Below, piece after piece: positions 10,447-64,000 of a stretch of DNA of 64,000 nucleotides. The stretch lies in contig NC_088317.1 in assembly GCF_910592395.1 (NCBI RefSeq), positions 1,488,001 through 1,552,000 on the forward strand, given 5' to 3'. The stretch comes from Lineus longissimus. Its lineage: Eukaryota; Nemertea; Pilidiophora; Heteronemertea; Lineidae. Positions within the stretch are counted from its first letter, which is position 1; each line of letters starts with the position of its first letter. A model generated the notes under the pieces. It did not search any database. It worked only from the letters and a program-made list of their open reading frames with translations, and was not told the DNA's origin. The translations under genes were made by a program, and so were the position numbers.

Positions 10447-10718
10447 CTGAACACACCTCGTATCTTTTTACATCCCAAACCAGATAGATCTGTGTGCTGA
10501 TATGAATCGGTAGAAATGCCTCTGGCAAGTCACTTCCGGCTCATTTTTTTATTGAAATCAAGCAAACTGATTGATGTACTTAGGAATATGAGATGATAAT
10601 AGGCAACCAAACGCCATCGTTCCATTGGCAATTACATATTTAAACACCGAGTCAACTGAGTTCCGCAAGCCAATTAGGTGAGCGAACATTATAACCAGAT
10701 TGTGACTCTGGTTTCACG

Positions 10719-11750
10719 ATGGAATCCCTTTCTACTCAGTACTTTGAGAATGAGAGTAAGTTGCCGACCACCACGAATCAAGAACATATTGTGTATCGCG
10801 ATAGCATCTTCAACTATCCACTCTTCAACGCAGCGGAATGGCTCTTCGGGGTCGTACCCCCATTTCTCATCGTCAGTGGCACGTTATTCAACATTCTAAA
10901 CATCATTGTCCTATCAACTGGTCGTTTCGGAAATGTGTCTACCAGAATTTTATTAACGGTTCTAGCGTTGACCGACACGGTTGTTTTGTACGCAGCCCTC
11001 ATGCGCAGCTGGATTGACACGGTATGGTGGATAGATCTGCGCATGCTCACACATGCCTCATGTCCGATTTTGACCTTCATCTCGTACTGTTCGTATCATT
11101 TCTCGAGTTGGAACTTGGTTCTTGTGACATTAGAGCGCTTCGTATCGGTTTGTTTCCCATTCAGAGCACGGAAAATCTGTACAAAGAAATGGACGATTGT
11201 TGCACTTATAACCCTGGCTTGTCTTATTTCCCTTGTAAACTGCCATTTTTTAGTATTCCAAAAAATTGAGGACAACATAGCATGTACGCCACCACGTGGC
11301 ACCTATTTCATTTTTATTACGAAGTATTTCTACTGGGCTGATTTGGCCATGAGGAGCGGTTTACCTTTCGTGGTAATCATTTTGTGTAATATTTGCATCA
11401 TCTACACAGTGTCGAGAAGTTTATCTCGGCGTAACCCCGCGAGTGCTGGAGAGTCGGCCACAAATCAAGGCTCCAAGCTGAACAGCATGACCTCCATGTT
11501 GCTAGTCGTCAGTTTCACCTTCATTACATTGACTCTCCCCGTCATGGCTTTCTTTCTTTACATCAGTAGCGCACCAAATTCAACCTATTCAGACATTGCA
11601 CGAAATTATTTCCTATATGCTGTGACACATCTTTTATATTATTTGAACAGTACGGTAAATTTTATTCTGTACTGCTTAAGCGGATCGAAATTTCGAGCTG
11701 CCGTATTAAATTTGTTTGGAGTACAAAATTGCTTTAAACACGGTGGATAA
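10719..11750 (+). CDS. Rhodopsin-class (class A) G protein-coupled receptor, peptide-receptor-like
   Basis: An intronless 343-residue protein with seven hydrophobic segments. An extracellular N terminus with an NES sequon precedes TM1 (about 42-65, N-containing LFNILNIIVL). TM2 has LALTD (D86). C115 at the top of TM3 can pair with C189 in extracellular loop 2. ERF at 139-141 replaces DRY at the end of TM3. TM5 is about 213-232 and TM6 about 258-281. TM7 ends NSTVNFILYC (about 310-319), with NPxxY changed to NFILY, followed by a short cytoplasmic tail. The NSxVNFxLYCLSG pattern is typical of invertebrate FMRFamide-receptor-like and related neuropeptide receptors, so coupling to a peptide ligand is likely, but the ligand is unknown. 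The ATG at 10719 is the first in frame that leaves a normal N terminus. The gene looks intact. Confidence 0.9.
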   Translation: MESLSTQYFENESKLPTTTNQEHIVYRDSIFNYPLFNAAEWLFGVVPPFLIVSGTLFNILNIIVLSTGRFGNVSTRILLTVLALTDTVVLYAALMRSWIDTVWWIDLRMLTHASCPILTFISYCSYHFSSWNLVLVTLERFVSVCFPFRARKICTKKWTIVALITLACLISLVNCHFLVFQKIEDNIACTPPRGTYFIFITKYFYWADLAMRSGLPFVVIILCNICIIYTVSRSLSRRNPASAGESATNQGSKLNSMTSMLLVVSFTFITLTLPVMAFFLYISSAPNSTYSDIARNYFLYAVTHLLYYLNSTVNFILYCLSGSKFRAAVLNLFGVQNCFKHGG

Positions 11751-43291: not shown

Positions 43292-43361
43292 ATGTCGCGG
43301 ACGTTACTTTTCTTAGGAACACTATGTTTTGCATTACTATGCCTTCCAAACAACACCCACG
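43292..43361 (+). CDS. Exon 1: signal peptide of the modular protein
   Basis: ATG after CGGCACC opens [19 protein letters not shown], a clear signal peptide: a short basic start, then a hydrophobic core. It ends at CACG|GTACGT in phase 1, matching the acceptor at 43656. This places the product in the secretory pathway and fixes the start of the gene. Confidence 0.85.
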
Positions 43362-46300
43362 GTACGTGATGTCGTTTAGTTATCTCACACAAATCAGAAT
43401 TTCAAATTTTTCTATTCCATCCATAAGATCGAGTAAGAGGGAATACTACTGTATTCTGTTATCGCTAATGCGGCGTGTGTGTAGATGTGTCTCAACTATT
43501 ATTTTCCGCGGACCAAATGTAAACAATCTTCACCAATGTACTTGACCTTAAAGTAGCATAGACCGTTGTAAAGCAGTTCATGTCGCGGCGAGTTAGACAA
43601 TGGTCACCTTTTCCTAAGCATGATTTTACCTTGATTAGTTCCCCTTGATATTTAGCTTTGAAGTACACTCCAATGGCTTCCACTCATCATGAAGTAGCCA
43701 GCGTACATCAAATCCGACGGAGTGTCCTACCAATACCCAAAAAGATCATCCATGGCGCCCATCACGGGAAGGCTAGCGTCAATCAAGGCACTGAGAGTCC
43801 ACCAATGCGGCACAAAGTGACTCACCACAGAAAGGCTGCCGTCCTTCTAGGCATTCACAGTCGTTCACCAATGCACAAAGTGACTCACCATAAGACTGTC
43901 GTCCATCAAGGCCACCACAGTGTCTCACCAATGAACAAATTGACCCATCATTTTAGGGCAAGCAAATCGCATCCCGATGGAAAAGGTATGCATCAAACGG
44001 CGACCGGATTTTGAGCAACGGTTCGGCCGAAAGTAATACATTTTTGTTTCCTCAATGCATGTAAAAAATGCATAAATTTCAATTACAATGTATTCCAGTA
44101 TAGATAGAAGTACTCATAATGATCTATTGGCATGAAAAAAATCGTGCTTTCTGATAATCATGAGACGCCCACACACACATCAACTGATATCGACTGAGGT
44201 GATATTGACGACACGTTCTTTCTTTAGGAAAAGGCCTGAAGAAATCCAAGAAGGCCTGTAAAAATATCGCCATCGGAGCCCAAAGTAAGTTATCTTTACG
44301 GATGAAATTACTTTGCAGTTGATATGGCAAGATGTGGGCAAACTCCGTCTTATATTCATGGTTGCCAAGCGTTACGGGCCACTATAGCCTCTCTTGGCCC
44401 AAACCTTTCCTCAAACAAATACTTCTTTGAGGACTTTGAACCAGCACCATGATTGGCAGAAGTTGCAACCAAGATTTTACGACCAATTGCTCAGGTGCAA
44501 TATTTCCGGTGTGTAAAAGGTACAACAAATATCTTATTTCAGAAAAATGCGACCATGGCAAGGTTTGGAACGGAACCAGATGCATAGTGAAACGTAAGGT
44601 TTATTCTTATTGATATTGCTCAAAGTTGAAAATCTATGTCACGGGAGAGTGTCCATGCACCATGTCCATCTGCTTTTCCAAAACGTCAAGTGAAAGATGT
44701 CTCAAGGCCTGAAATCAGAAGTAAAAGTACTTGAAGTATTTTCGAGTATAAACACAACCTTCCTGCTGCCGTCTAGACTAGTAGCGTACCAGTAAGAATT
44801 CGTGCATGCACGTAAGATGGTTCCCTTAACCAATATCGTCGTCTTTTTTAGCGAACTGCAAAGGGAAAATGACTTGGAATGGCCAAAAGTGTGTCCCCAA
44901 ATGTGAGTATCAAATCAAACCATACGTTCGCTTTAAAAATTGAATTACATCAGGATGTGGTTTGTAAAGAGGAACATTTGCTCAGTATCGCAATCTGTTG
45001 AAACTAAAAAACATGTAAGAATAAATTTCACATTTGTTCAGTATTGCAATCTGTTGAAACTAATAAACATGTAAGAATAAATCTCACGATCGTCAGTGTG
45101 ACACCTGTGTGCTGTTTCGACTGGATAAGCTAGTTATTTTGGTAAAGTAGCAGCATGCCTGAACTGGCAGTGCAAGAAATAACTTTACACTAAAGAAGAG
45201 AATCCAATGTCTTATTCGGCAGCCATTTTGGATATCGGCGTCCATCTTGGAATAAAGGCAAAATTTATGGTGACCTTCAGAGCTTAATCAAAGGAGTATG
45301 GTCTCAGGACCAGAAAACCGCTGCGAAACCCTTCACTGATGGAACTTTTTCCTTGGCTTAGACTGTCTTAAATATGAAATTATTTCAGCTCTGTGCAAAG
45401 GTAGAATGGTACGGGTCAACAATAAGTGCGTACGAAAGCGTAAGTAAAATACCAATTGCTGAGATCATTTCACTCGGATGGAACTGTTGTCCACCGTTAA
45501 TGGCTGAATCAACTAAACCAACATTTGATTTCAGTGTTTTTAAATATTTCCTCTCTAAAAATATGTATCTGTTCGATTCACGCCAACTTGAATGAAAAGG
45601 TCTGTGTCTCTTTCGTACAAAACCATATTTTTATGTATTTAAGTTCTGGTACATTGCATGATAATTTATAAAATATTCTTGTAATTAATATTTCCAGCAA
45701 AGTGTAAAAAGTACCACGTCTTCAACGGAAGAAAATGTACACGCCAAAGTAAGTCAACTGAAGCAAGGTGATTGGCTGGTGCCGATACATTGTAGGCCTA
45801 ACCGGTGTATGGAATGAACTTCAATATTGGAGGCTGCCTATCGCAAATCTGAGAACAATCTCATGAATAGATGCAGCGAATCATCTTAACACAAGGTCTT
45901 CACTACCTGTTCTCGTGAATACTCGGCCTGTGTCAAGAAGCGAATGAAATTCCAACTGTGAATGATTCTCACATGCCCAATCGAATGAATACGGGCTACA
46001 TGGACTCGCCCGATCTTTTCTCCGATGACTTTATAGACTAATGCGCTGCTTACCTCCCATTTTCACCAACTCCGTGACCATGACTCATGACGCGTGGGCT
46101 GACCAGCAGTAGAGAAGCACATGGCTTGATGAGCCTCTGCCTTTGTACTTCGTGGTTCGTACGGATTGCGATCCCTGCCCATTTTGACACAATATTAACA
46201 GTTTGAATCCAAATCATCAGGTTAGTATATTAACCTTTCGCTTCCTTTTGATATGCTATGTATTTTCCTTACTGTCTTTCAGTCGAATGCGTGAGGTATC

Positions 46301-49300
46301 ACGCATGGAACGGTGAGAAGTGCGTCCGACAACGTGAGTAGATGTTGATCTATGCACTTGCACGTAGCAATGATGCTTTCAGTAATAACTGAATCCTCAT
46401 TTAGCTGGTATGAAATTTAGGGCTCACATGCAGAGAAGGCTTGTATATTAAGCTGCCGTAACAATAGAGATGAAAGTGGGTTATCCGGTGTGACAGCGGA
46501 TATAGTCCCCCTGGAGTCATAGTCCGGTAGCATTGTATTTGATCAATTAAGCAGCATGATCTATTGTACCGCTAACCCTAACCAAAACATTTAGGTCATG
46601 CGGGCTATTGTTACACGGACTATCAGCCCTAGGACTACTATCCCTTGCACACCGGCATTAAACCATATCACAAGTTTGCACAACTGGTTTCGTAGGTAGG
46701 GAAATCTTTTGACTTTTCTGTTTTATGGTTTAACAATGAACAACGAAGAACAAGTACATCATCTTTATGATTTCTCACATTGCAGAGAGGTGTTCTAAAG
46801 GAGAATACTTCAACGGAAGGATCTGCGTTAGCATATGTAAGATAATTTCATTTTTACCACCAATAATTCTCGAGTGTAACGCTCTCATGCTATGTACATT
46901 GACATGGTACGGCCATATCCATTGAGTTGTAACGCAATACATGCAGTGTATAATCATGTGTCTCGCGTCAACTATGTATGGCAAGACGAGATAAGACCAG
47001 GTACATTTGTTAAAGACATTATGCGCGTTCCAAAGCCACCGCACATCACTACTATAATGGACGTAGAGCTGAAATAGTTTGTCACACATCTCCTCCGTCA
47101 GTTCAGATCGGATGACCTCGAAACTTTTCCTGAAAGTCGTGGTTGATATGGAGATGGTCCTCGCCGGGTTAAATGGGTAAACTTTGCAGCGACCTCGGAG
47201 AAATAGCATTTTTTGTTCTTTCTATATATGGGCATACTCATTAACATAAGGGGCCTTTTCAGCAGGTGTGATTTGCATATGGGGCCATCTATTAAATCAA
47301 AAGTGTGGGATTATACAAAAATAAGCCGGGAAGGTATTGAGGCCACTGGACCAGATAAAGGAAGGTTTAGCAAAAATCGCCGATTCATATGATCGCTTTG
47401 AATCAATCTCTAAATCCATTTCCAGCGGAATGCAAGGGAAGAAACATATGGAATGGACGGAAATGCGTCAGCAAATGTAAGTAAAAGAACGGAAACCACT
47501 ATATGCACGTTGTCGTGCCATCTCGACGAATATCTAATACGCCAAAATGCCATACCAGTTCCCATTATGTCATATCACCCAACATTTTACGAGTTCTTTG
47601 GATGTTATGTTCCATTGGATTCGTGATGGTGAATTTTCGTCCGGGCAGGCTAATAACCTTTCTGATTGCTGGTCAACATTTGGAGTAATTCAGTACCTAA
47701 AGAAACCTTGGCATCACCGTATAGCTTATACCACTTGTCTTTTTTTCGCCAGCCAAATGCAAACCAGGACAAGTTTGGAGAAGGAACCGCTGTGTTCGCC
47801 TGCGTGAGTATAGGGGGATTTCTTCTTCCCCTTCATCTTAACGTGTTTCATGGCATCAACACACTGATAGAAGCAGTTACTGCAAAACTGTATAGGCATC
47901 TTGCAGAGCGTCATCATAAGTTCTTTTACTTCATGAGTCGATTTCCGGGAGCAAAATTGGCCGAGACTTTCCTGTTTGGTACTCTGGCTGAGGTTATTTC
48001 TCTTTCATTGTTTCCAGCGAGATGCAGCAAGAGAAAGGGTTTTGTATTCAATGGAAAGCGTTGCATCTTCCAAGGTCGATGTCAGAAGTACAAGAAATGG
48101 AACGGGCACAAGTGCGTGCCAAATAAAAGTAAGTTTCCATCGGTATCTGATCGCCCAGAGCGTAATCGTACCAACCAATGACACCCGGTGTAATGTTTTT
48201 GAGTGTTTCTATTTTTGAGTGTTTCCCCTCATTGTTTGGGAACGCTAAAAGATAGATTGACAAGTTTTTCTGTGTTTCCCCCTATTGAAAAGTCATGGTC
48301 TCTCTATAGCTGCCTATTGTTTGGAAACACTGACACATGGGAAACAACCACAGATGTTACACCGGCCCGGCCAGTAAGAGCAAACTCTCCAAGAAGACCT
48401 CGAAAACCATCAGTCCAATCAATACAAGAACGCTGTACGATTTTGAGTTAAACGGGGTATAGATGCGCATTACAATATTATCATTTCCCATGACGGGCGG
48501 CCCCCAGAGTCCTGATCATCGCCGTCACTGCAGATTCTCGTTCTCCTTTTTTTTCTTAAAGAAGTTTCACCATAACAATCCAGTGACAATATTCTGCTTT
48601 ACATCTTTAGTCAAATGTAGAAAAGGTCAGAGATTTAATGGTAAGAGGTGCGTTGATGTTCGACCACCAGTGCGACCTTGCAAACCTGGATATAAACGGA
48701 TACGCGGCAAATGTCGTAGGATTAGCGTGCCAAATCGTAAGTTTCAATAAAGACGCTTTCATAAAGGGGTACGCCGTTCGGGTACATTGTATTTACTGGT
48801 GGCAAAAGAAAACATGAATAAACACCCGCTATGCAGTAACCAGGCGTGTCAACATGATGAATATTGACTTGTGAAGTATATCTTTAACGACGTACAGCGT
48901 GCATGAATTTTTCACAACGCGGAACCGAAATCACACGTGGGTGCACACGAGTCCGGCGAGATACTAATCATCCAATTCATCGATACTTACGTAACAGTAA
49001 ACATTTATGTCACACAATTCTACAATCAAAAACAATCTCTTCCAAACACTCAAACGATGATTATTACGTTTTCTGTGATCTGTGCTGGTCCTTCGTATTT
49101 CTTGGCAAGAGACACGTTTAAATCACTTTCTCGATTCTCAGCGAGATGTGGGCAAGGCAAACGTTACAATAGAAAGCTCAGAAGATGTGTTCCTATAGTC
49201 TCCAAGCCTTGCAAAAAGGAGGGCTACAAGCGAGTCAATGGGAGATGTATTAGACAGAGTAAGTATATGAATGGTATAAGAGAGGAAGCGCCTCATATGA

Positions 49301-52300
49301 CAACCTAGCAAATAAATACAAGTAAAAAAACACCTGAAAAACGAAAGAAAAAACAAGGTAGGTATTGTGAACAAAAAAAAATCGACCCCGGCAGGACTCG
49401 AACCTGCAATCTTCTGATCCGAAGTCAGACGCCTTATCCATTAGGCCACGAGGCCGCTGTGTGTCCCTGCTATTTTGTATGTTCATAATCTTAATCAATG
49501 ATAGTTTTGGAAATTTCTGTAAGATGGCAGTGCGATCGCTTTTTGACCATAGCAGTGTGAAAGGCAGTCTGGTACCCTGAAAAAAAGTCCCGTTGAGCAC
49601 GAACGAACGTTTGGGCGACGCAGAAAAGATATGCCCGATTCAAACTGGGGTGGGTGGGGTGGGGCGGGTCAGGGATAGCACAGATTTAGATCATATCATA
49701 AAGGCAAGGGTTTCTCTAACAATGAAATATCAAGTGGAGGGTGGTTTTGGGATTGAGCTGCAATCTCAATAATGTATTATGATTTTCACAGGTCGTTGTG
49801 GAAAACGGCAACGTTGGGACGGAAAACGGTGCATCTACCACGGTGAGTTTTCCCAAAAAATCGTCGCAGTTTCTTTAAAAAGCCACCTAACATCCTATGA
49901 ATCATGACAATGATCAACATGTGCATTTCGTTATTTTGCCCCAACCGTAAAAAGAATTCAACCCAAGCGTTTATTTTTCCCTGCTGGTTCAGGCCGAGCG
50001 ACCACTCTGAAAGGTGATTCGTGGGGGGTCGATTCTATCGAGATTTCCCTTTGATAAGACTGTGCAATAATGGGAATTTATGCCAGTGGAGATGTGAGTG
50101 GGCTTCGACGAAGATAATAGGCCGTGTATTAGGCTATAGGCCTTTAAAATCTCTTACATCGAGCTCGGTAAGGGGCAAAATAAGGTAAGTGCAACAGCAT
50201 TGCGAGATTTATTCGCGAATTCTGCGAAAATGAAACCCCCGCGAAAATTTCAGTTAATCAATATCTACTCAATACAGTAATAACTGTCTCCCCCTTCTCC
50301 CCCTTACAGCTGCATGTCGAACTAATATGGTTTGGAACGGAAAACGATGCGTTACGAAATGTAAGTTTGGTGTCATCAAAAATTGAAATTTGAAATATCG
50401 AGAGGAGGAGTGTATAATAACAACTGGTGCCGAGATGGAAACAACTGATCTTTTTCCTTGATGACCTAGTACTCATTGGCAAGACCTAGACGTAAAGACG
50501 ACAGTCGTCTGATTACCGTTGAACAGTCAGCTTCCTTGAGTGAATCAATCTTTACAATGATTTATTTAAAAGACAAATTTAATATCAAATTTCCGACCAG
50601 AATTTGAATTTGAATCTTTAACTATCGTTTTCTCTGTGGAAAGTTTTCAAAGTATGTTCGAATTTTGTCACAGCTAAATGCAAGACTGGTTTTGTTTGGC
50701 GCAGAGAAAAGTGTGTCAAGAAACGTAAGTAAGAAGTCCTCTTCCATTCCAGCTACGATATAAATTTCAAAAATATGTCTTTAACCGTTAGATTACGCAG
50801 AGCGCAAAGATTTATCAGAGACTTAAATCAATTGTGTTCAGTTTGTAACTTGTACCTCCACGTACCGTATTTTATCAAAATTAGCTTTGTCCTTGGCATT
50901 GTTGGGAATTATGTTATATCTTTGTGCAATAAATGGTACAGTGGCTTCGTAAGCGTATTCGTAAATGATTGCCGTGCCAAAAAAAAATCCAAAATGTTTT
51001 TTTTAATCGCAGCTCATTGTGGGCGAGGAACCAAGTTCAACGGAGAGATATGTGTCCCACAGAGTAAGTAGAGCGTTCTCTGGTCTGTTCATTTCATGTT
51101 GGAAGAAAACAATGCATGCACGTTCTTACCACAGCTGAAACTAGTATTAATATGCCAATGATTGTCTAAATCAAAGATTGAAACAAGAAGTCCGCGAAAC
51201 GATGTTGTTCCCTAGAACCACGAAAATAAAACGCCCGTGACAATAAGGTGGTTTACCAATCTGATTTTCAGATATGTGCAAAAACGGCCGAAGATGGAAT
51301 GGCAGGAAGTGTGTAGGTCAGTACCCCGATTGTCATGGTTACTGATAGGAAAAGTCTTAATCAAAAGTGGGTTTCGCAAGCTCTTCAGTTACCTATTGGT
51401 AATTTACTTGCTGTGAACTTGAAACATCATTCCTGTGAGCTGGCAACGGAATCGGGCGCCATGACATCTCCGACTCTAGTTAATTCGAGTCAGATGTCAA
51501 GCTTACTTCTGATTTTCAGGAAAAAGGTGTCCTCCTGGAACAAGAAGATACAAAGGGAAGTGCATACCTCATGCAAGCGGATGTAAAAAAGGGTTCAGAA
51601 AGGTCGGAGGAAAATGCATCCCACGTAGTAAGTACATGAGATTTGAAGAAAATGTCACCTCATCGCCTCTCCATTGCCTATTTCGTTTGCGAACCTTTGT
51701 GTGACTTGTTGATTAGTGGTTGGTGTTTTCTAACATTACAGGGTGCAGACGAGGATACAGAAGAATCAAAGGGAAATGCCGCAAAGTGCCAGTGAGATGT
51801 CGCCGAGGATATAAACTGCGGAAAGGACGGTGTGTCCGGAACAGTAAGTACGAACAGAATGCGACGCTTAATGTAACTTGGCTCTCCTGCGTTATTATTG
51901 AAAGACATGAATAATGAGGTCATCAATTTTGAGTTGTCAATAATGTACTGGTTAAGGCCACTTTCTTCATCTCTACTCCTCTCTCTATAAACAGTCCACA
52001 AATGCCATAAAGGATATAGACGATACAGAGGACGATGTATCAAGCAGAGTGAGTAACAATTTACAGTTTCATTGATTCGTGAGTCAGTTTTTCCTTCATA
52101 TGTGACTTCGATCCATGCTACACTTTACAAAGGAAATATTGAAATTCTGTTTGATGATACACGGCCATAGGAGCTCCCCTTGGCTTTAAGCGGCATTCAC
52201 GACCACAATGAACGCCTCCCGTTTAGAAAATACTGTCATTGAATCAAATTAATTCATTTGTTATTTGATACATCTCGAAGTATTTTCATTTCAGGGAAAT

Positions 52301-55300
52301 GTACTCATGGGCAAGTTTGGAATGGGATGCGTTGCATTAAGAGACGTAAGTCAAACATAATTTTCAAGTGTTTTTCTCATTCAACTTTCGCCATTTATTG
52401 AGTGAATGAGTATAAAACCGGCCTCTTACGATGTGAACGCTACGTAAAGCTGCTATATACCGTATCTCCTTCAATTGAGTACATTCGACATAACATGGCG
52501 TTATCTCCTTCAGTTATGTGCTCGATGTTTTTTAGTGAAATGTAACAAAAAGACTCAGAGATGGAATGGAGAGACTTGCGTTCCAAAGGCAAAATGTCCC
52601 GGTAAAAACCTCGTCTGGAATGGAAAGAAATGTACTCGTAAACGTAAGTTGAATTATTAGCACGTACATGTCCATTTAGTAACTCTAGAGAACCTTATTT
52701 GAGGAGGCCACAGGCCTAATAAGTAACATTAACGTATTTACTTTGATCAAACTTACCAACGTTAATCACAACATACATCTTTTACCATAACCAGATGCCT
52801 CAATCAGAGCTTTCTCTTATTACAGCCAAGTGTAAGCGAGGGTACCGATTCAACAAGAAGAAATGCATCAGGCAGAGTGAGTCAATTGTCTTTGCTTCAT
52901 CTTTATGGCGTCTAGTACTTTCAACATTGATATGTTGTCCATTAGTATGAGCAACATAACTGACTACTCAATGTCTTTGCGCGCATGTTTGAAAAGGCAA
53001 TATAACTGTAACACTTTTCCAGACTTCAGCACTCTTCATCTCACACTGGTGAAATGTATCTCGATCTCATTTTCAGATAGATGCAGACGAAACTCCAAAT
53101 GGAATGGCAAGACTTGTGTTCCGGATAAACCAGGTTAGTATATTTCGACAACCTTTATTACATTAGAGCGGAGAGGACGATGTGTGCCAATCAAGAACAA
53201 TAAATACGACACCCCAAATTGCCTTGATTCAAGTCGATAGAGACTCATTACCACAATGCTTCAGAGATTGAAATCACATGACTTGTGTTAAGTTAAGTAG
53301 GGGGCAAAGGAGCAGGATTCCTTATATGAAGGCTCTCCGATCAACATTTCAGTTGAAAAGTCTGTCTGCAACCTTCCCAAGAAGACCGGTCTCTGCAAGG
53401 CGGCCTTCAGGAAGTACTACTATAACGCCAGCTCGGGAACCTGCTTACAGTTCATCTATGGTGGTTGCGGAGGCAATGGTAACAACTTCCGCACAAAAGC
53501 TGAGTGCGAAAAGCGATGTAAAAAGGGTACGTACGTCACTCAATACTAATTGTTTGTTAGTAGTTGTTAGTCAGTGCCATCCTTGTCTTGAGCTCGAGAC
53601 CCGGCCAGTGCCACTTGGTAACTCTCAACTGGCCTAAAGTGTCCTTGCGTGCGCTCGATAGTGCCTACCCTTGGATCCCCAGAAAGGTTTCTGCATTTTC
53701 TTCAGTGAAGGCGGCTCTGGAAGCCATTTTCGATCTTGTCTGTTGCACTGTTTCAATTTCAGGAAAGAAATGCCAACCTGGATACAGAAAGGTCGGAGGA
53801 AAATGCATCCCACGTAGTAAGTACATGAGATTTGAAGAAAATGTCACCTCATCGCCTTTCCATTGCCTATTTCGTTTGCGAACCTTTGTGTGACTTGTTG
53901 ACTAGTGGTTGGTGTTTTCTAACATTACAGGGTGCAGACGAGGATACAGAAGAATCAAAGGGAAATGCCGCAAAGTGCCAGTGAGATGTCGCCGAGGATA
54001 TAAACTGCGGAAAGGACGGTGTGTCCGGAACAGTAAGTACGAACAGAATGCGACGCTTAATGTAACTTGGATCTCCTGCGTTATCATTGAAAGACATGAA
54101 TAATGAGGTCATCAATTTTTAGTTGTCAATAATGTACTGGTTAAGGCCACTTTCTTCATCTCTACTCCTCTCTCTATAAACAGCCCGCAAATGCCATAAA
54201 GGATATAGACGATACAGAGGACGATGTATCAAGCAGAGTGAGTAACAATTTACAGTTTCATTGATTCGTGAGTCAGTTTTTCCTTCATATGTGACTTCGA
54301 TCCATGCTACACTTTACAAAGGAAATATTGAAATTTTGTTTGATGATACATGGCCATAGGAGCTCCCCTTGGCTTTAAGCGGCATTCACGACCACAATGA
54401 ACGCCTCCCGTTTAGAAAATACTGTCATTGAATCAAATTAATTCATTTGTTATTTGATACATCTCGAAGTATTTTCGTTTCAGGGAAATGTACTCATGGG
54501 CAAGTTTGGAATGGGATGCGTTGCATTAAGAGACGTAAGTCAAACATAATTTTCAAGTGTTTTTCTCATTCAACTTTCGCCATTTATTGAGTGAATGAGT
54601 ATAAAACCGGCCTCTTACGATGTGAACGCTACGTAAAGCTGCTATATACCGTATCTCCTTCAATTGAGTACATTCGACATAACATGGCGTTATCTCCTTC
54701 AGTTATGTGCTCGATGTTTTTTAGTGAAATGTAACAAAAAGACTCAGAGATGGAATGGAGAGACTTGCGTTCCAAAGGCAAAATGTCCCGGTAAAAACCT
54801 CGTCTGGAATGGAAAGAAATGTACTCGCAAACGTAAGTTGAATTATTAGCACGTACATGTCCATTTAGTAACTCTAGAGAACCTTATTTGAGGAGGCCAC
54901 AGGCCTAATAAGTAACATTAACGTATTTACTTTGATCAAACTTACCAACGTTAATCACAACATACATCTTTTACCATAACCAGATGCCTCAATCAGAGCT
55001 TTCTCTTATTACAGCCAAGTGTAAGCGAGGGTACCGATTCAACAAGAAGAAATGCATCAGGCAGAGTGAGTCAATTGTCTTTGCTTCATCTTTATGGCGT
55101 CTAGTACTTTCAACATTGATATGTTGTCCATTAGTATGAGCAACATAACTGACTACTCAATGTCTTTGCGCGCATGTTTGAAAAGGCAATATAACTGTAA
55201 CACTTTTCCAGACTTCAGCACTCTTCATCTCACACTGGTGAAATGTATCTCGATCTCATTTTCAGATAGATGCAGACGAAACTCCAAATGGAATGGCAAG

Positions 55301-58300
55301 ACTTGTGTTCCGGATAAACCAGGTTAGTATATTTCGACAACCTTTATTACATTAGAGCGGAGAGGACGATGTGTGCCAATCAAGAACAATAAATACGACA
55401 CCCCAAATTGCCTTGATTCAAGTCGATAGAGACTCATTACCACAATGCTTCAGAGATTGAAATCACATGACTTGTGTTAAGTTAAGTAGGGGGCAAAGGA
55501 GCAGGATTCCTTATATGAAGGCTCTCCGATCAACATTTCAGTTGAAAAGTCTGTCTGCAACCTTCCCAAGAAGACCGGTCTCTGCAAGGCGGCCTTCAGG
55601 AAGTACTACTATAACGCCAGCTCGGGAACCTGCTTACAGTTCATCTATGGTGGTTGCGGAGGCAATGGTAACAACTTCCGCACAAAAGCTGAGTGCGAAA
55701 AGCGATGTAAAAAGGGTACGTACGTCACTCAATACTAATTGTTTGTTAGTAGTTGTTAGTCAGTGCCATCCTTGTCTTGAGCTCGAGACCCGGCCAGTGC
55801 CACTTGGTAACTCTCAACTGGCCTAAAGTGTCCTTGCGTGCGCTCGATAGTGCCTACCCTTGGATCCCCAGAAAGGTTTCTGCATTTTCTTCAGTGAAGG
55901 CGGCTCTGGAAGCCATTTTCGATCTTGTCTGTTGCACTGTTTCAATTTCAGGAAAGAAATGCCAACCTGGATACAGAAAGGTCGGAGGAAAATGCATCCC
56001 ACGTAGTAAGTACATGAGATTTGAAGAAAATGTCACCTCATCGCCTTTCCATTGCCTATTTCGTTTGCGAACCTTTGTGTGACTTGTTGATTAGTGGTTG
56101 GTGTTTTCTAACATAACAGGGTGCAGACGAGGATACAGAAGAATCAAAGGGAAATGCCGCAAAGTGCCAGTAAAATGTCGCCGAGGATATAAACTGCGGA
56201 AAGGACGGTGTGTCCGGAACAGTAAGTACGAACAGAATGCGACGCTTAATGTAACTTGGCTCTCCTGCGTTATTATTGAAAGACATGAATAATGAGGTCA
56301 TCAATTTTGAGTTGTCAATAATGTACTGGTTAAGGCCACTTTCTTCATCTCTACTCCTCTCTCTATAAACAGCCCGCAAATGCCATAAAGGATATAGACG
56401 ATACAGAGGACGATGTATCAAGCAGAGTGAGTAACAATTTACAGTTTCATTGATTCGTGAGTCAGTTTTTCCTTCATATGTGACTTCGATCCATGCTACA
56501 CTTTACAAAGGAAATATTGAAATTCTGTTTGATGATACACGGCCACAGGAGCTCCCCTTGGCTTTAAGCGGCAATCACGACCACAATGAACGCCTCCCGT
56601 TTAGAAAATACTGTCATTGAATCAAATTAATTCATTTGTTATTTGATACATCTCGAAGTATTTTCATTTCAGGGAAATGTACTCATGGGCAAGTTTGGAA
56701 TGGGATGCGTTGCATTAAGAGACGTAAGTCAAACATAATTTTCAAGTGTTTTTCTCATTCAACTTTCGCCATTTATTGAGTGAATGAGTATAAAACTGGC
56801 CTCTTACGATGTGAACGCTACGTAAAGCTGCTATATACCGTATCTCCTTCAATTGAGTACATTCGACATAACATGGCGTTATCTCCTTCAGTTATGTGCT
56901 CGATGTTTTTTAGTGAAATGTAACAAAAAGACTCAGAGATGGAATGGAGAGACTTGCGTTCCAAAGGCAAAATGTCCCGGTAAAAACCTCGTCTGGAATG
57001 GAAAGAAATGTACACGCAAACGTAAGTTGAATTATTAGCACGTACATGTCCATTTAGTAACTCTAGAGAACCTTATTTGAGGAGGCCACAGGCCTAATAA
57101 GTAACATTAACGTATTTACTTTGATCAAACTTACCAACGTTAATCACAACATACATCTTTTACCATAACCAGATGCCTCAATCAGAGCTTTCTCTTATTA
57201 CAGCCAAGTGTAAGCGAGGGTACCGATTCAACAAGAAGAAATGCATCAGGCAGAGTGAGTCAGTTGTCTTTGCTGCATCTTTATGGCGTCTAGTACTTTC
57301 AACATTGATATGTTGTCCATTAGTATGAGCAACATAACTGACTACTCAATGTCTTTGCGCGCATGTTTGAAAATGCAATATAACTAACACTTTTCCAGAC
57401 TTCAGCACTCTTCATCTCACACTGGTGAAATGTATCTCGATCTCATTTTCAGATAGATGCAGACGAAACTCCAAATGGAATGGCAAGACTTGTGTTCCGG
57501 ATAAACCAGGTTAGTATATTTCGACAACCTTTATTACATTAGAGCGGAGAGGACGATGTGTGCCAATCAAGAACAGAAAGTACGACACCCCAAATTGCCT
57601 TGATTCAAGTCGATAGAGACTCATTACAACAATGCTTGAGAAAAATGACTTCTGTTAAATGAAGTATGGGGCCGAGGAGCAGGATTCCTTATATGAAGGC
57701 TCTCCGATCAACATTTCAGTTGAAAAGTCTGTCTGCAAGCTTCCCAAGAAGACCGGTCTCTGCAAGGCGGCCTTCAGGAAGTACTACTATAACGCCAGCT
57801 CGGGAACCTGCTTACAGTTCATCTATGGTGGTTGCGGAGGCAATGGTAACAACTTCCGCACAAAAGCTGAGTGCGAAAAGCGATGTAAAAAGGGTACGTG
57901 CGTCTCTTAATACTAATTGTTTGTTAGTAGTTGTTAGTCAGTGCCATCCTTGTCTTGAGCTCGAGACCCGGCCAGTGCCACTTGGTAACTCTCAACTGGC
58001 CTAAAGTGTCCTTGCGTGCGCTCGATAGTGCCTACCCTTGGATCCCCAGAAAGGTTTCTGCATTTTCTTCAGTGAAGGCGGCTCTGGAAGCCATTTTCGA
58101 TCTTGTCTGTTGCACTGTTTCAATTTCAGGAAAGAAATGCCAACCTGGATACAGAAAGGTCGGAGGAAAATGCATCCCACGTAGTAAGTACATGAGATTT
58201 GAAGAAAATGTCACCTCATCGCCTTTCCATTGCCTATTTCGTTTGCGAACCTTTGTGTGACTTGTTGACTAGTGGTTGGTGTTTTCTAACATTACAGGGT

Positions 58301-61300
58301 GCAGACGAGGATACAGAAGAATCAAAGGGAAATGCCGCAAAGTGCCAGTGAGATGTCGCCGAGGATATAAACTGCGGAAAGGACGGTGTGTCCGGAACAG
58401 TAAGTACGAACAGAATGCGACGCTTAATGTAACTTGGCTCTCCTGCGTTATTATTGAAAGACATGAATAATGAGGTCATCAATTTTTAGTTGTCAATAAT
58501 GTACTGGTTAAGGCCACTCTCTTCATCTCTACTCCTCTCTCTATAAACAGCACGCAAATGCCATAAAGGATATAGACGATACAGAGGACGATGTATCAAG
58601 CAGAGTGAGTAACAATTTACAGTTTCATTGATTCGTGAGTCAGTTTTTCCTTCATATGTGACTTCGATCCATGCTACACTTTACAACGGAAATACTGAAA
58701 TTCTGTTTGATGATACACGGCCATAGGAGCTCCCCTTGGCTTTAAGCGGCATTCACGACCACAATGAACGCCTCCCGTTTAGAAAATACTGTCATTGAAT
58801 CAAATTAATTCATTTGTTATTTGATACATCTCGAAGTATTTTCATTTCAGGGAAATGTACTCATGGGCAAGTTTGGAATGGGATGCGTTGCATTAAGAGA
58901 CGTAAGTCAAACATAATTTTCAAGTGTTTTTCTCATTCAACTTTCGCCATTTATTGAGTGAATGAGTATAAAACCGGCCTCTTACGATGTGAACGCTACG
59001 TAAAGCTGCTATGTACCGTATCTCCTTCAATTGAGTACATTCGACATAACATGGCGTTATCTCCTTCAGTTATGTGCTCGATGTTTTTTAGTGAAATGTA
59101 ACAAAAAGACTCAGAGATGGAATGGAGAGACTTGCGTTCCAAAGGCAAAATGTCCCGGTAAAAACCTCGTCTGGAATGGAAAGAAATGTACACGCAAACG
59201 TAAGTTGAATTATTAGCACGTACATGTCCATTTAGTAACTCTAGAGAACCTTATTTGAGGAGGCCACAGGCCTAATAAGTAACATTAACGTATTTACTTT
59301 GATCAAACTTACCAACGTTGATCACAACATACATCTTTTACCATAACCAGATGCCTCAATCAGAGCTTTTTCTTATTACAGCCAAGTGTAAGCGAGGGTA
59401 CCGATTCAACAAGAAGAAATGCATCAGGCAGAGTGAGTCAGTTGTCTTTGCTTCATCTTTATGGCGTCTAGTACTTTCAACATTGATACGTTGTCCATTA
59501 GTATGAGCAACATAACTGACTACTCAATGTCTTTGCGCGCATGTTTGAAAAGGCAATATAACTGTAACACTTTTCCAGACTTCAGCACTCTTCATCTCAC
59601 ACTGCTGAAATGTATCTCGATCTCATTTTCAGATAGATGCAGACGAAACTCCAAATGGAATGGCAAGACTTGTGTTCCGGATAAACCAGGTTAGTATATT
59701 TCGACAACCTTTATTACATTAGAGCGGAAAGGACGGTGTGTCCGGAACAGTAAGTACGAACAGAATGCGACGCTTAATGTAACTTGGATCTCCTGCGTTA
59801 TTATTGAAAGACATGAATAATGAGGTCATCAATTTTGAGTTGTCAATAATGTACTGGTTAAGGCCACTTTCTTCATCTCTACTCCTCTCTCTATTAACAG
59901 TCCACAAATGCCGTAAAGGATATAGACGATACAGAGGACGATGTATCAAGCAGAGTGAGTAACAATTTACAGTTTCATTGATTCGTGAGTCAGTTTTTCC
60001 TTCATATGTGACTTCGATCCATGCTACACTTTACAAAGGAAATATTGAAATTCTGTTTGATGATACACGGCCATAGGCGCTCCCCTTGGCTTTAAGCGGC
60101 ATTCACGACCACAATGAACGCCTCCCGTTTAGAAAATACTGTCATTGAATCAAATTAATTCATTTGTTATTTGATACATCTCGAAGTATTTTCATTTCAG
60201 GGAAATGTACTCATGGGCAAGTTTGGAATGGGATGCGTTGCATTAAGAGACGTAAGTCAAAAATAATTTTCAAGTGTTTTTCTCATTCAACTTTCGCCAT
60301 TTATTGAGTAAAATAGTATAAAACCGGCCTCTTACGATGTGAACGCTACGTAAAGCTGCTATATACCGTATCTCCTTCAATTGAGTACATTCGACATAAC
60401 ATGGCGTTATCTCCTTCAGTTATGTGCTCGATGTTTTTTAGTGAAATGTAACAAAAAGACTCAGAGATGGAATGGAGAGACTTGCGTTCCAAAGGCAAAA
60501 TGTCCCGGTAAAAACCTCGTCTGGAATGGAAAGAAATGTACACGCAAGCGTAAGTTGAATTATTAGCACGTTCATGTCCATTTAGTAACTCTAGAGAACC
60601 TTATTTGAGGAGGCCACAGGCCTAATAAGTAACATTAACGTACTTACTTTGATCAAACTTACCAACGTTAATCACAACATACATCTTTTACCATAACCAG
60701 ATGCCTCAATCAGAGCTTTCTCTTATTACAGCCAAGTGTAAGCGAGGGTACCGATTCAACAAGAAGAAATGCATCAGGCAGAGTGAGTCAGTTGTCTTTG
60801 CTTCATCTTTATGGCGTCTAGTACTTTCAACATTGATATGTTGTCCATTAGTATGAGCAACATAACTGACTACTCAATGTCTTTGCGCGCATGTTTGAAA
60901 AGGCAATATAACTGTAACACTTTTCCAGACTTCAGCACTCTTCATCTCACACTGGTGAAATGTATCTCGATCTCATTTTCAGATAGATGCAGACGAAACT
61001 CCAAATGGAATGGCGAGACTTGTGTTCCGGATAAACCAGGTTAGTATATTTCGACAACCTTTATTACATTAGAGCGGAAAGGACGGTGTGTCCGGAACAG
61101 TAAGTACGAACAGAATGCGACGCTTAACCCTTTTGCTGCCAACTTCGCATTTCTGCACAATGACTTTTGTTCCTTTTGCTGCCAACTTCGCATTTTGGCG
61201 AAATTTTCCTATGTGGTGAAAATACATTGATTTTTCGTCTGCTAGCGTCGTTTATGGTATATACCTATAGATGGCGTGGTAGAGGAGTTACCACGCTACG

Positions 61301-64000
61301 TTTCTACTGTACATGTTATATATCGATTTGCTGAGATTTCGGGTGAAAATCACTTCCAAAAGTTCACAAAATGGCGAATCGGATGTCATTATCACAGGTA
61401 CTCGATGAATTGGGTATCATGCATGATTCAAAGAACTGTTTCGAAAGGTACCAAGCAGTTGTCAATTATTAGAATAGAGTTATCTGACTGCTACATACAT
61501 TCTATGACAGGACATTTGGCTGAGAAACTTTGAACTTTCATGTTTAGTTGAGGAAACCCTGAATTTTAGCTGTTTTATACCAGGCCCCCTCCATAGGGAC
61601 CCCTGACCCCCCTATCTACTATTAGTTCTCTGGTAGCACTAAAAAGGAGCTCTAGGGAGTGAAGGTATGTAATTTAGTCCCAACATATCACCATAGGTAG
61701 TAATTTTTGGTCTACAAAGTAAATGGCTGATCATTGAATTTTGAAGAATTTTGCTCGATTTCTGTAAATAACGCATTGGTATTTCTTGGCAATTTTGTTA
61801 CAAAGCAATACAAATTCAGGGTTTACAAGGTTATGGACTTAGAAAGGAAAGAGTAAAGAAACATGCAGATGCATAAAAATAGTTTTATTAGTTGTATTAT
61901 TACATTTATTCCAAATTACAGTGGTTTATTCTACAAAATCTTCAATTCTCATTAGTTATTCAAGATGGCGGCATGCAAATTAGGGCGTGACCTACTTTTA
62001 AAAATTTTTAATTTGAAGTCCAGGTCATACTGAACAACTTCCATGTGCATTGTTTTGACATATCTCCAATAGTTTTCTCAGGAAAAATATTTAAATTGAT
62101 CATATCAATTTTTTTCAATTTAACCTAAAATTGCTTGGCACTGAGGACTCAAAAAAAAAAAATTTGCTTGGCAGCAAAAGGGTTAATGTAACTTGGATCT
62201 CCTGCGTTATTATTGAAAGACATGAATAATGAGGTCATCAATTGTGAGTTGTCAATAATGTACTGGTTAAGGCCACTTTCTTCATCTCTACTCCTCTCTC
62301 TATTAACAGTCCACAAATGCCGTAAAGGATATAGACGATACAGAGGACGATGTATCAAGCAGAGTGAGTAACAATTTACAGTTTCATTGATTCGTGAGTC
62401 AGTTTTTCCTTCATATGTGACTTCGATCCATGCTACACTTTACAAAGGAAATATTGAAATTCTGTTTGATGATACACGGCCATAGGCGCTCCCCTTGGCT
62501 TTAAGCGGCATTCACGACCACAATGAACGCCTCCCGTTTAGAAAATACTGTCATTGAATCAAATTAATTCATTTGTTATTTGATACATCTCGAAGTATTT
62601 TCATTTCAGGGAAATGTACTCATGGGCAAGTTTGGAATGGGATGCGTTGCATTAAGAGACGTAAGTCAAAAATAATTTTCAAGTGTTTTTCTCATTCAAC
62701 TTTCGCCATTTATTGAGTAAAATAGTATAAAACCGGCCTCTTACGATGTGAACGCTACGTAACGCTGCTATATACCGTATCTCCTTCAATTGAGTACATT
62801 CGACAGATCATGGCGTTATCTCCTTCAGTTATGTGCTCGATGTTTTTTAGTGAAATGTAACAAAAAGACTCAAAGATGGAATGGAGAGACTTGCGTTCCA
62901 AAGGCAAAATGTCCCGGTAAAAACCTCGTCTGGAATGGAAAGAAATGTACACGCAAGCGTAAGTTGAATTATTAGCACGTTCATGTCCATTTAGTAACTC
63001 TAGAGAACCTTATTTGAGGAGGCCACAGGCCTAATAAGTAACATTAACGTACTTACTTTGATCAAACTTACCAACGTTAATCACAACATACATCTTTAAC
63101 CATAACCAGATGCCTCAATCAGAGCTTTCTCTTATTACAGCCAAGTGTAAGCGAGGGTACCGATTCAACAAGAAGAAATGCATCAGGCAGAGTGAGTCAG
63201 TTGTCTTTGCTTCATCTTTATGGCGTCTAGTACTTTCAACATTGATATGTTGTCCATTAGTATGAGCAACATAACTGACTACTCAATGTCTTTGCGCGCA
63301 TGTTTGAAAAGGCAATATAACTGTAACACTTTTCCAGACTTCAGCACTCTTCATCTCACACTGGTGAAATGTATCTCGATCTCATTTTCAGATAGATGCA
63401 GACAAAACTCCAAATGGAATGGCAAGACTTGTGTTCCGGATAAACCAGGTTAGTATATTTCGACAACCTTTATTACATTAGAGCGGAAAGGACGGTGTGT
63501 CCGGAACAGTAAGTACGAACAGAATGCGACGCTTAATGTAACTTGGATCTCCTGCGTTATTATTGAAAGACATGAATAATGAGGTCATCAATTTTGAGTT
63601 GTCAATAATGTACTGGTTAAGGCCACTTTCTTCATCTCTACTCCTCTCTCTATTAACAGTCCACAAATGCCGTAAAGGATATAGACGATACAGAGGACGA
63701 TGTATCAAGCAGAGTGAGTAACAATTTACAGTTTCATTGATTCGTGAGTCAGTTTTTCCTTCATATGTGACTTCGATCCATGCTACACTTTACAAAGGAA
63801 ATATTGAAATTCTGTTTGATGATACACGGCCATAGGCGCTCCCCTTGGCTTTAAGCGGCATTCACGACCACAATGAACGCCTCCCGTTTAGAAAATACTG
63901 TCATTGAATCAAATTAATTCATTTGTTATTTGATACATCTCGAAGTATTTTCATTTCAGGGAAATGTACTCATGGGCAAGTTTGGAATGGGATGCGTTGC
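43292..64000 (+). CDS. Giant modular secreted protein: C-x10-C mini-modules plus Kunitz domains (3' incomplete)
   Basis: I read 65 exons, every internal one phase 1-1, giving about 4.77 kb of coding sequence (about 1590 residues) before the window ends. Order: signal peptide; His-rich repeat exon; a Lys-rich exon (44228-44284) with one Cys; 17 diverged module exons (44543-51627); then tandem genomic blocks with module and Kunitz exons. Each module is C-x10-C (rarely x11-x12) in 17-18 residues, in two flavours: C-x4-5-WNG-x2-C-V, and C-x2-GY-x4-GKC. Lys and Arg dominate. The modules resemble the C-terminal half of TIL-type inhibitor domains (inference). No transmembrane segment is seen. Nothing in my knowledge matches the full architecture. 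A secreted cationic structural, adhesive or defence protein is possible. Exon chaining rests on splice sites, phase and continuous frame. Confidence 0.8.
43656..43985 (+). CDS. Exon 2: histidine-rich repeat domain
   Basis: A 330-nt phase 1-1 exon, about 110 residues with 19 histidines and no cysteine. Four imperfect tandem repeats of 20-24 residues are aligned on SPMHKVTHH-type cores (DNA repeat starts at about 43730, 43802, 43868 and 43928). Also rich in Lys, Ser and Val. HH pairs spaced this way could bind Zn, Cu or Ni, as in some invertebrate structural and adhesive proteins (inference). The acceptor is TATTTAG at 43651-43655 and the donor AAAAG|GTATGC. Confidence 0.8.
44228..44284 (+). 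CDS. Exon 3: Lys-rich linker with a single Cys
   Basis: 57 nt, phase 1-1, flanked by CTTTAG and GTAAGT. It encodes a linker beginning [11 protein letters not shown]. Unlike the following exons it has only one Cys, so either that Cys pairs elsewhere or it is free for intermolecular linkage. Confidence 0.65.
44543..51627 (+). CDS. Exons 4-20: diverged array of C-x10-C module exons
   Basis: Exons: 44543-44593, 44852-44902, 45389-45439, 45698-45748, 46283-46333, 46786-46836, 47426-47476, 47753-47803, 48018-48128, 48611-48736, 49142-49258, 49792-49842, 50310-50360, 50674-50724, 51013-51063, 51272-51316 and 51520-51627. Twelve are exactly 51 nt and one is 45. The four of 108-126 nt carry two modules. 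Typical modules are [24 protein letters not shown] and [12 protein letters not shown]. Together they hold 21 modules. Introns are unrelated in sequence and length, so these duplications are old. Every exon has an AG acceptor with pyrimidine tract, a GTRAG or similar donor, and phase 1 at both ends. Confidence 0.8.
44975..45086. repeat. 56-bp tandem duplication in an intron
   Basis: Two adjacent copies built on CAATCTGTTGAAACTAA and ACATGTAAGAATAAAT, with a few differences, within the intron between exons 44852 and 45389. Confidence 0.8.
48185..48365 (-). mobile_element. 181-bp MITE, copy 3, in an intron of the modular gene
   Basis: Same family as 12040-12219, in inverse orientation, with CCGGTGTAA ends. 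It sits 57 bases after the donor of exon 48018-48128. Confidence 0.85.
49373..49381 (-). terminator. Pol III terminator of the tRNA gene
   Basis: A run of nine A on the plus strand (T9 on the minus strand) lies directly 3' of the tRNA-Arg gene. Oligo-T is the standard Pol III stop. Confidence 0.8.
49383..49455 (-). tRNA. tRNA-Arg-TCG: tRNA-Arg (anticodon TCG)
   Basis: 73 bases on the minus strand forming a full cloverleaf. The acceptor stem GGCCTCG/CGGGGTC has two G-U-type pairs. The D arm carries the A box TGGCCTAATGG. The anticodon stem TCTGA/TCAGA encloses loop CTTCGGA, giving anticodon TCG. The T arm contains GGTTCGAGTCC (B box). No intron and no encoded CCA, as expected for a eukaryotic nuclear gene. 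It lies antisense in the intron between exons 49142 and 49792 of the modular gene and is followed by an oligo-T terminator. Confidence 0.95.
53167..53199 (+). pseudogene. Relic module exon with dead donor, block 1
   Basis: After ATTAG, a 33-nt phase 1-1 frame ([11 protein letters not shown]) resembles the second half of exon A, but its donor reads ATAAAT instead of GTAAGT. Probably a skipped remnant. Equivalent relics lie at 55356-55388 and 57543-57575. Confidence 0.5.
53353..53526 (+). CDS. Kunitz (BPTI-type) exon, block 1
   Basis: 174 nt, phase 1-1. It has all six Kunitz cysteines in standard spacing ([14 protein letters not shown], then YYY, then [13 protein letters not shown], then CEKRC). 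The residue after the second Cys, the P1 site, is Lys, which in this family favours trypsin-like proteases. The YGGCGGN turn and FRTKAEC helix start are conserved, so the fold should be functional. Confidence 0.92.
53785..55973 (+). repeat. Tandem block 2 (2189 bp)
   Basis: Exons: A 53931-54032, B 54184-54237, C 54484-54534, D 54725-54832, E 55015-55065, F 55266-55322, Kunitz 55542-55715 and G 55952-56005. Nearly identical to block 1 through exons and introns. Exon B starts with Thr-Arg rather than Ile-His. The relic exon with the ATAAAT donor is at 55356-55388. Confidence 0.85.
55542..55715 (+). CDS. Kunitz exon, block 2
   Basis: I see no difference from the block 1 Kunitz exon; Lys at P1 and all six Cys are retained. 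Confidence 0.92.
55974..58151 (+). repeat. Tandem block 3 (2178 bp)
   Basis: Exons: A 56120-56221, B 56373-56426, C 56673-56723, D 56914-57021, E 57204-57254, F 57453-57509, Kunitz 57720-57893 and G 58130-58183. It is 11 bases shorter than blocks 1 and 2 because of small intron deletions. Exon A has Lys for Arg in PVKCRRGY. The relic exon (57543-57575) has a donor GAAAGT, one change from GTAAGT. Confidence 0.85.
57720..57893 (+). CDS. Kunitz exon, block 3
   Basis: As in blocks 1 and 2, but Lys replaces Asn after the first Cys ([14 protein letters not shown]). P1 Lys and all six Cys are kept. The donor context is GTACGTGCG instead of GTACGTACG. Confidence 0.92.
58152..59733 (+). repeat. Tandem block 4, truncated, without Kunitz
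   Basis: Exons: A 58298-58399, B 58551-58604, C 58851-58901, D 59092-59199, E 59382-59432, F 59633-59689 and hybrid mini-exon H 59723-59749. After exon F the sequence jumps from the relic exon (ATTAGAGCGGA) into the second half of exon A. This removes the Kunitz exon, exon G and the first half of A. H is 27 nt, phase 1-1 (ERKGRCVRN), with one Cys and a restored GTAAGT donor. Confidence 0.75.
59734..61127 (+). repeat. Tandem block 5 (1350-bp short type)
   Basis: Exons: B 59901-59954, C 60201-60251, D 60442-60549, E 60732-60782, F 60983-61039 and H 61073-61099. Exon F has Glu for Lys (WNGETC). The block-to-block distance is 1350 bases once the transposon after H is removed. No exon A, Kunitz or G. 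Confidence 0.8.
61128..62182. mobile_element. Non-autonomous piggyBac-like element, 1055 bp
   Basis: Flanked by TTAA on both sides (61124-61127 and 62183-62186), with 15-bp inverted ends CCCTTTTGCTGCCAA and TTGGCAGCAAAAGGG. Neighbouring blocks show the empty site with a single TTAA. The left end has a second subterminal copy of CCTTTTGCTGCCAACTTCGC about 44 bases in. No transposase is present; the only ORF (61276-61533, 85 codons) is not recognisable. TTAA duplication and CCC...GGG ends are the hallmark of the piggyBac superfamily. Confidence 0.85.
62183..63536 (+). repeat. Tandem block 6 (short type)
   Basis: Exons: B 62310-62363, C 62610-62660, D 62851-62958, E 63141-63191, F 63392-63448 and H 63482-63508. 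Exon F has Gln for Arg (CRQNSKW). Otherwise nearly identical to block 5. Confidence 0.8.
63537..64000 (+). repeat. Tandem block 7, cut by the window end
   Basis: Exon B 63660-63713 and the first 41 bases of exon C (63960-64000). The array continues beyond the window, so the total block number and the 3' end of the gene are unknown. Confidence 0.8.

Follow-up and report, generated by a model that had tools for sequence, protein, structure and literature searches.

A tandem array of DUF5874-type, two-Cys modules with Kunitz domains in a gene model of the nemertean Lineus longissimus

In Lineus longissimus, a gene model of 62 exons, first and last included, occupies positions 43292-64000 of the forward strand of the window, i.e., the whole 64-kb stretch of DNA analyzed here, and its exons splice into a single frame of 1563 codons with 0 stops (Table 1). 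All the internal exons have lengths divisible by 3, are bounded by AG and GT and lie in phase 1-1, and the predicted protein reads, in order, as a signal peptide, a His-rich head and then 70 C-x10-12-C modules with three Kunitz domains; as the window end cuts exon 62, the gene is incomplete and 70 modules is a minimum. A sequence-only reading had placed at these coordinates a giant secreted protein with two-Cys modules, Kunitz domains and a His-rich head, encoded by a chain of exons with every internal one in phase 1-1. As a gene model this is right throughout, down to the coordinates and the phases, save that its figure of at least 65 exons was slightly high. Its formula of nearly one module per 51-nt exon holds only in part: among the 58 complete exons from 4 to 61, 24 are of 51 nt, 10 of 54, 6 of 57 and 1 of 45, the rest being 14 two-module exons (102-126 nt) and 3 Kunitz exons (174 nt). 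Similarly, exactly two cysteines per exon is true of 42 of the 56 module exons (one of the 42 being cut by the window end) and fails for the 14 that hold two modules. An internal repeat around PMxK[VL]THH can be seen by eye in the His-rich head.

Table 1. Exons of the gene model at 43292-64000, with positions counted in the window
Feature	Position	Strand	Description
Exon 1	43292..43361	+	Start codon and signal peptide (the latter judged by eye); CACC before ATG, hydrophobic core, donor GTACGT
Exon 2	43656..43985	+	His-rich head, 110 aa, 17% His
Exon 3	44228..44284	+	Lys-rich linker, one Cys
Exons 4-18	44543..51063	+	Diverged non-duplicated modules; 12 exons single-module, 3 two-module (48018-48128, 48611-48736, 49142-49258)
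Exon 19	51272..51316	+	Short module exon, 45 nt; donor GTCAGT
Exons 20-21	51520..51843	+	Two-module exons, second loop type C-x2-G-Y/F/T-x4-G-K/R-C
Exons 22-26	51995..53133	+	Block of five exons and six modules, amplified further downstream
Exon 27	53353..53526	+	Kunitz domain 1, 174 nt, phase 1-1, presumed P1 Lys; PF00014 75.5 bits, cut-off 21
Exons 28-50	53763..59689	+	Block copies in tandem, ~2.19 kb apart, with Kunitz exons 35 and 43 among them
Exon 35	55542..55715	+	Kunitz domain 2; protein sequence identical to domain 1
Exon 43	57720..57893	+	Kunitz domain 3; one residue different
Exons 51-62	59901..64000	+	Block copies of 1.35 kb, no Kunitz exon; window end cuts exon 62

The earlier estimate of about 70 modules agrees with the 70 counted, though these comprise just 33 distinct sequences, the remainder coming from 2.19- and 1.35-kb tandem duplications. 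Of their cysteine spacings, which had been described as almost invariant at x10 and rarely x11-x12, 55 of the 70 are x10, 13 are x11 and 2 are x12. Among the 69 gaps between modules, 45 are of 5 residues and 60 of 4-6, the range being 4-9 with 66 across the three Kunitz domains, and the typical repeat is C-x10-C-x5-C, in a unit that is typically 17-18 residues long. A repeated CX10C spacing in secreted proteins is also a feature of the Balbiani ring 3 protein and the silk homology domain of VEGF-C and VEGF-D, whose four-Cys motif is given in a passage of PMC10328876 as C-X10-C-X-C-X(1,3)-C, the related VEGF-A tail being called heparin-binding there; a repeat of this kind can be ruled out for the worm array, where no gap between modules equals 1. 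The commonest module form is C-x2-G-x2-[W/F]-N-G-x2-C-[V/I]: a W or F six residues past the first cysteine, mostly followed by N-G, is found in 19 of the 28 distinct x10 modules. The other nine are without that aromatic, and eight of them take the form C-x2-G-Y/F/T-x4-G-K/R-C, which constitutes a second loop type. The 1413-residue body is 33.5% Lys+Arg and 2.3% Asp+Glu, with a pI of 10.85. The three Kunitz exons code for six cysteines each, and the PF00014 match of domain 1 covers positions 1-53 of the 53 in that profile; the Lys read from the sequence at what we take to be P1 follows the position of that residue in BPTI.

The exon signal is far above chance. Candidate exons were defined as being of 45-60 nt and phase 1-1, with an acceptor carrying a pyrimidine tract, a donor matching 5 of 6 consensus bases and exactly two cysteines at x9-12. 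By this rule there are 36 on the forward strand of 43292-64000, 1 on the forward strand of 1-43291 and 0 on the reverse strand across the whole window, as against a mean of 0.04 and a maximum of 2 in 100 Markov shuffles of 43292-64000. The non-duplicated part alone (43292-51519) has 14 candidates (shuffle mean 0.04, maximum 3). One C-x12-C string, at 49366, was rejected as a module: it lies inside a tRNA-Arg(TCG) gene at 49382-49456 on the reverse strand, i.e., opposite to the array, in intron 14/15, and this gene is the source of the false match. A module-like string (7.6 bits) with no visible donor also appears at 53169, 55358 and 57545, in an intron of three block copies, and is perhaps a dead module.

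Two phases of growth can be read along the array. Up to around 51.5 kb all exons are distinct, and block repeats that include the introns set in from around 51.6 kb. In the older part, the two cysteine codons of the 14 distinct 51-nt exons are fixed at codon positions 1-2 and variable at position 3, the ratio of TGC to TGT being 30:28 across exons 4-26, and the introns following exons 4-20 do not match one another by blastn at E 1e-3. That the cysteine codons are fixed yet mix TGC and TGT, with introns that no longer match, suggests that the older modules were maintained by selection on the protein. The blocks beyond follow at steps of 2189, 2189, 2178, 1350, 2409 and 1350 bases, those of 1.35 kb lacking the Kunitz exon together with the next two, and the step of 2409 amounts to one of 1350 plus an insert of ~1.06 kb. 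This insert (61124-62186) lies in one intron and has 19-nt perfect inverted ends beginning TTAACCC; we take it to be a piggyBac-type element, non-autonomous and sitting at a TTAA target. Identity among the six copies of the exon 22-26 stretch is 97.8-99.5%, and their differences touch 10 of 321 exon columns and 27 of 818 intron columns (p=1), i.e., there is no signal of constraint in this comparison; given both the equal variation and the high identity, the block copies are recent and hence uninformative on constraint. Exons in phase 1-1 would let unequal crossing-over in the introns duplicate modules with the frame intact, and with such frame-safe duplication the length of the chain could change quickly.

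The close identity of these copies, their lack of a constraint signal and the transposon-like insert are what might be expected of a non-functional locus, be it a pseudogene or an array multiplied in the assembly. Against this, all 62 exons are without a stop or frame error and have AG/GT borders throughout, the excess of candidate exons over the shuffles holds in the non-duplicated part and the cysteine codons mix synonymously; moreover, the block copies differ from each other and one has the insert, which a plain echo of the assembly would not be expected to explain. A non-functional array is hence highly improbable, and a real gene with a DUF5874-type array is near certain.

This family assignment comes from the Pfam profile DUF5874 (PF19202, function unknown), which matches the protein of exons 1-27 in 10 stretches with 54.6 bits against a cut-off of 27.1. 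On a 188-aa piece, from exon 4 into exon 13, it scores 43.3 bits, which drop to 20.7 upon replacing Cys by Ala and to 16.9 upon replacing the aromatic-Asn turn by Ala; thus, the cysteines and this turn both carry the match. Four consecutive modules align in one run to positions 9-67 of the 74 in the profile (28.4 bits), from which it may be inferred that DUF5874 itself represents about four such loops; two further four-module pieces, with 25.7 and 24.0 bits, stay under the cut-off, and module groups of the second loop type have no match to it. The sequence-only reading had known of no described domain this small repeated in this way and had put the module forward as undescribed. Neither claim survives the score of DUF5874 above its cut-off and the presence of the same loop in tandem in bacteria; the outcome that this reading had itself named as refuting, a known family found by HMM, has thus come about for the module. 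The family, however, has no assigned function. A literature search for DUF5874 by name returned no paper, and our literature searches found no protein with this architecture, so that the system as a whole may still be undescribed. At the locus, a catalogued Pfam module of unknown function is set in what seems a new architecture.

The same reading had likened the module to half of a TIL domain, a domain with ten cysteines and five disulfides, as against the two cysteines of the worm module. Extending this, the modules could be TIL domains cut to one loop, with the chain and its Kunitz domains acting as a multi-headed protease inhibitor. The likeness stands to the extent that several module groups have weak matches to TIL (PF01826) with E 0.0041-0.14, mostly at profile positions 29-55 and in two pieces at 11/13-55, and the inhibitor reading is also favored by the Kunitz domains in the same chain, which are genuine by profile. 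However, TIL always remains under its cut-off, at best with 17.7 of 24.5 bits and E 0.0041 or worse, and other profiles equal or beat it on some module groups: cEGF (PF12662; best 18 versus a cut-off of 26.6 on window pieces), EGF_2 (PF07974; best 17.6 versus 22.1) and, again with weak matches below their cut-offs, EB and ADGRF3_N. On the long protein DUF5874 does far better than TIL, and EGF_TEN reaches 25.1 of 65 bits on exons 1-27. The reactive loop of TIL also lies upstream of the half that the modules match. A reduced inhibitor is therefore an improbable reading of the modules.

Parallels to the array can also be drawn with prokaryotes. A DNA-level search pattern of two WNG loops in tandem matched 36 prokaryote loci; at least two WNG-type loops share a frame in 24 of these but not in the other 12. 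Like the worm array, the bacterial proteins (e.g., L014, L010 and L016/L027) have tandem C-x5-WNG-x2-C loops; they differ in being coded by a single open frame without introns, and no Kunitz domain was found in the five scanned, two of these as pieces. The most extensive is L014, from a Deltaproteobacteria MAG, with 22 C-x9-12-C strings in one frame, 13 of them WNG-type; its 46.2 bits make it the one among the five natural bacterial proteins scanned that passes the cut-off of DUF5874, the others being below it (L010 13.1, L024 13.9 and Acidovorax P0001 14.0 bits; L027 none). To judge from the sequences, the bacterial and worm loops look alike, but a motif of 12 residues can have several independent origins. 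Part of the CBM_14/peritrophin-A domain likewise resembles the worm loop, the worm module having one presumed disulfide. CBM_14 (PF01607) has no match to the window protein or its pieces, and a piece of L014 scores 22.5 against its cut-off of 22.1 over the whole piece, with no single stretch passing alone. Ligand contacts of CfAvr4 are given in a passage of PMC6128652 as W100 and D102. L016 and L027, both from Campylobacterota, have a His/Lys-rich tail after their 7 and 9 WNG-type loops respectively, which parallels the His-rich head of the worm protein. One or two such loops, of the CPDGTYWNGSACV and CPVGTQWNGTACV types, are also found in two viral contigs (L043 4056-6749 and L042 2356-4047).

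Each module is predicted to form a two-stranded hairpin. AlphaFold2, given a two-module exon plus 12 further dimers (13 rows), returned a mean pLDDT of 82 and a pTM of 0.38, with strands at 7-9/14-16 and 25-27/32-34, i.e., one hairpin per module, and a bacterial four-module piece gave a mean pLDDT of 71 and a pTM of 0.31. A low pTM is what beads on a string might give, but it may also come from the few alignment rows. A Foldseek search found no significant solved fold (best E 6.6). At the level of sequence, two single-module profiles built from the window retrieved scarabaecin (1iyc) as their sole PDB sequence at E<=10, with non-significant values of E 0.059 (25 modules) and 0.39 (15 modules), and profiles including bacterial rows ranked it first (E 0.021 and 0.088). 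Scarabaecin was absent with two column-permuted control profiles, one of which gave two unrelated chains (E 0.97 and 1.4) and the other none. The profile of longer window pieces (A2) had no PDB sequence at E<=10, and a 407-aa array searched against PDB had as its sole match an antibody (E 0.42). The alignment with scarabaecin covers C-x2-G-x2-WNG with the G and WNG in register, the best module being identical at 8 of 12 positions, and the peptide itself (CPKGKVWNGFDC) has the C-x10-C spacing and the G and WNG positions of the modules. It binds chitin and, unlike the modules in their long array, is a single, unrepeated, antifungal 36-residue peptide from a beetle. A passage of PMC6265681 gives it a single disulfide and lists it among the single-disulfide antimicrobial peptides of invertebrates. 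This likeness is best treated as a lead rather than as proof.

Were the lead to be followed, the protein might be an innate-defense polymer: a multivalent antifungal or antibacterial net of linked scarabaecin- or arenicin-type hairpins, with the Kunitz domains blocking microbial proteases. The standing of scarabaecin as the sole PDB match of the single-module window profiles and the strong positive charge of the modules speak for this, but that match is non-significant and the modules look by eye to be hydrophobic-poor when set against membrane-active hairpins. A related thought is that the chain is a precursor, cleavage between whose modules frees many small cyclic peptides; most module exons correspond to one peptide-sized unit, and the protein has 144 overlapping dibasic matches. 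The linkers, however, have no visible repeated cleavage motif, and the only matches to the furin-type RX[KR]R pattern are 12 RCRR strings, each containing a module cysteine, which leaves the defense polymer without sites for freeing its modules and the precursor without a furin-type site outside those strings. A defense polymer is accordingly unlikely, and a peptide precursor decidedly more so.

The function that we would tentatively propose, while granting it slightly less than an even chance, is that of a secreted polycation of disulfide hairpins with Kunitz guards, which acts as a multivalent binder of acidic or chitin-type polymers. The gene would be transcribed as one chain, in which each module would pair its own two cysteines. 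With one-third of its residues being Lys or Arg, the chain offers trypsin many sites, and the Lys-P1 Kunitz domains, of the trypsin-inhibitor type, would shield it from trypsin-like proteases. The abundance of Lys and Arg, along with small closed loops that often have an aromatic, would suit multivalent binding, with many individually weak cationic and aromatic loops together holding an acidic or chitin-type polysaccharide. The site of action would be an extracellular product, i.e., mucus, tube, cuticle, shell or egg coat. A broader and rather doubtful proposal would see in the module a 17-residue, one-disulfide, glycan-binding hairpin held in common with bacterial arrays, through transfer or repeated invention, and perhaps the smallest disulfide domain to have been amplified as an animal phase-1 exon; the product would be a length-tunable, polycationic secreted fiber with trypsin inhibitors built in, and its copy number would still be changing by whole-block duplication.

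For DUF5874, a family of unknown function, the locus offers a large concrete case in an animal and the testable hypothesis of a polymer built from large numbers of minimal one-disulfide loops. It likewise offers an instance of a secreted polymer whose length would change by block duplication via phase 1-1 exons, the duplications being still visible at ~98-99% identity. Should the modules indeed bind chitin or acidic glycans, a hairpin of 17 residues would serve as a natural binding unit of very small size, which adhesives and biomaterials could put to use.

Elsewhere in the window, the forward strand has a rhodopsin-type GPCR in a single frame at 10695-11747 (7tm_1, 70.3 bits) and a PAN_1 domain at 4575-4949 (24.2 bits versus a cut-off of 21.4).
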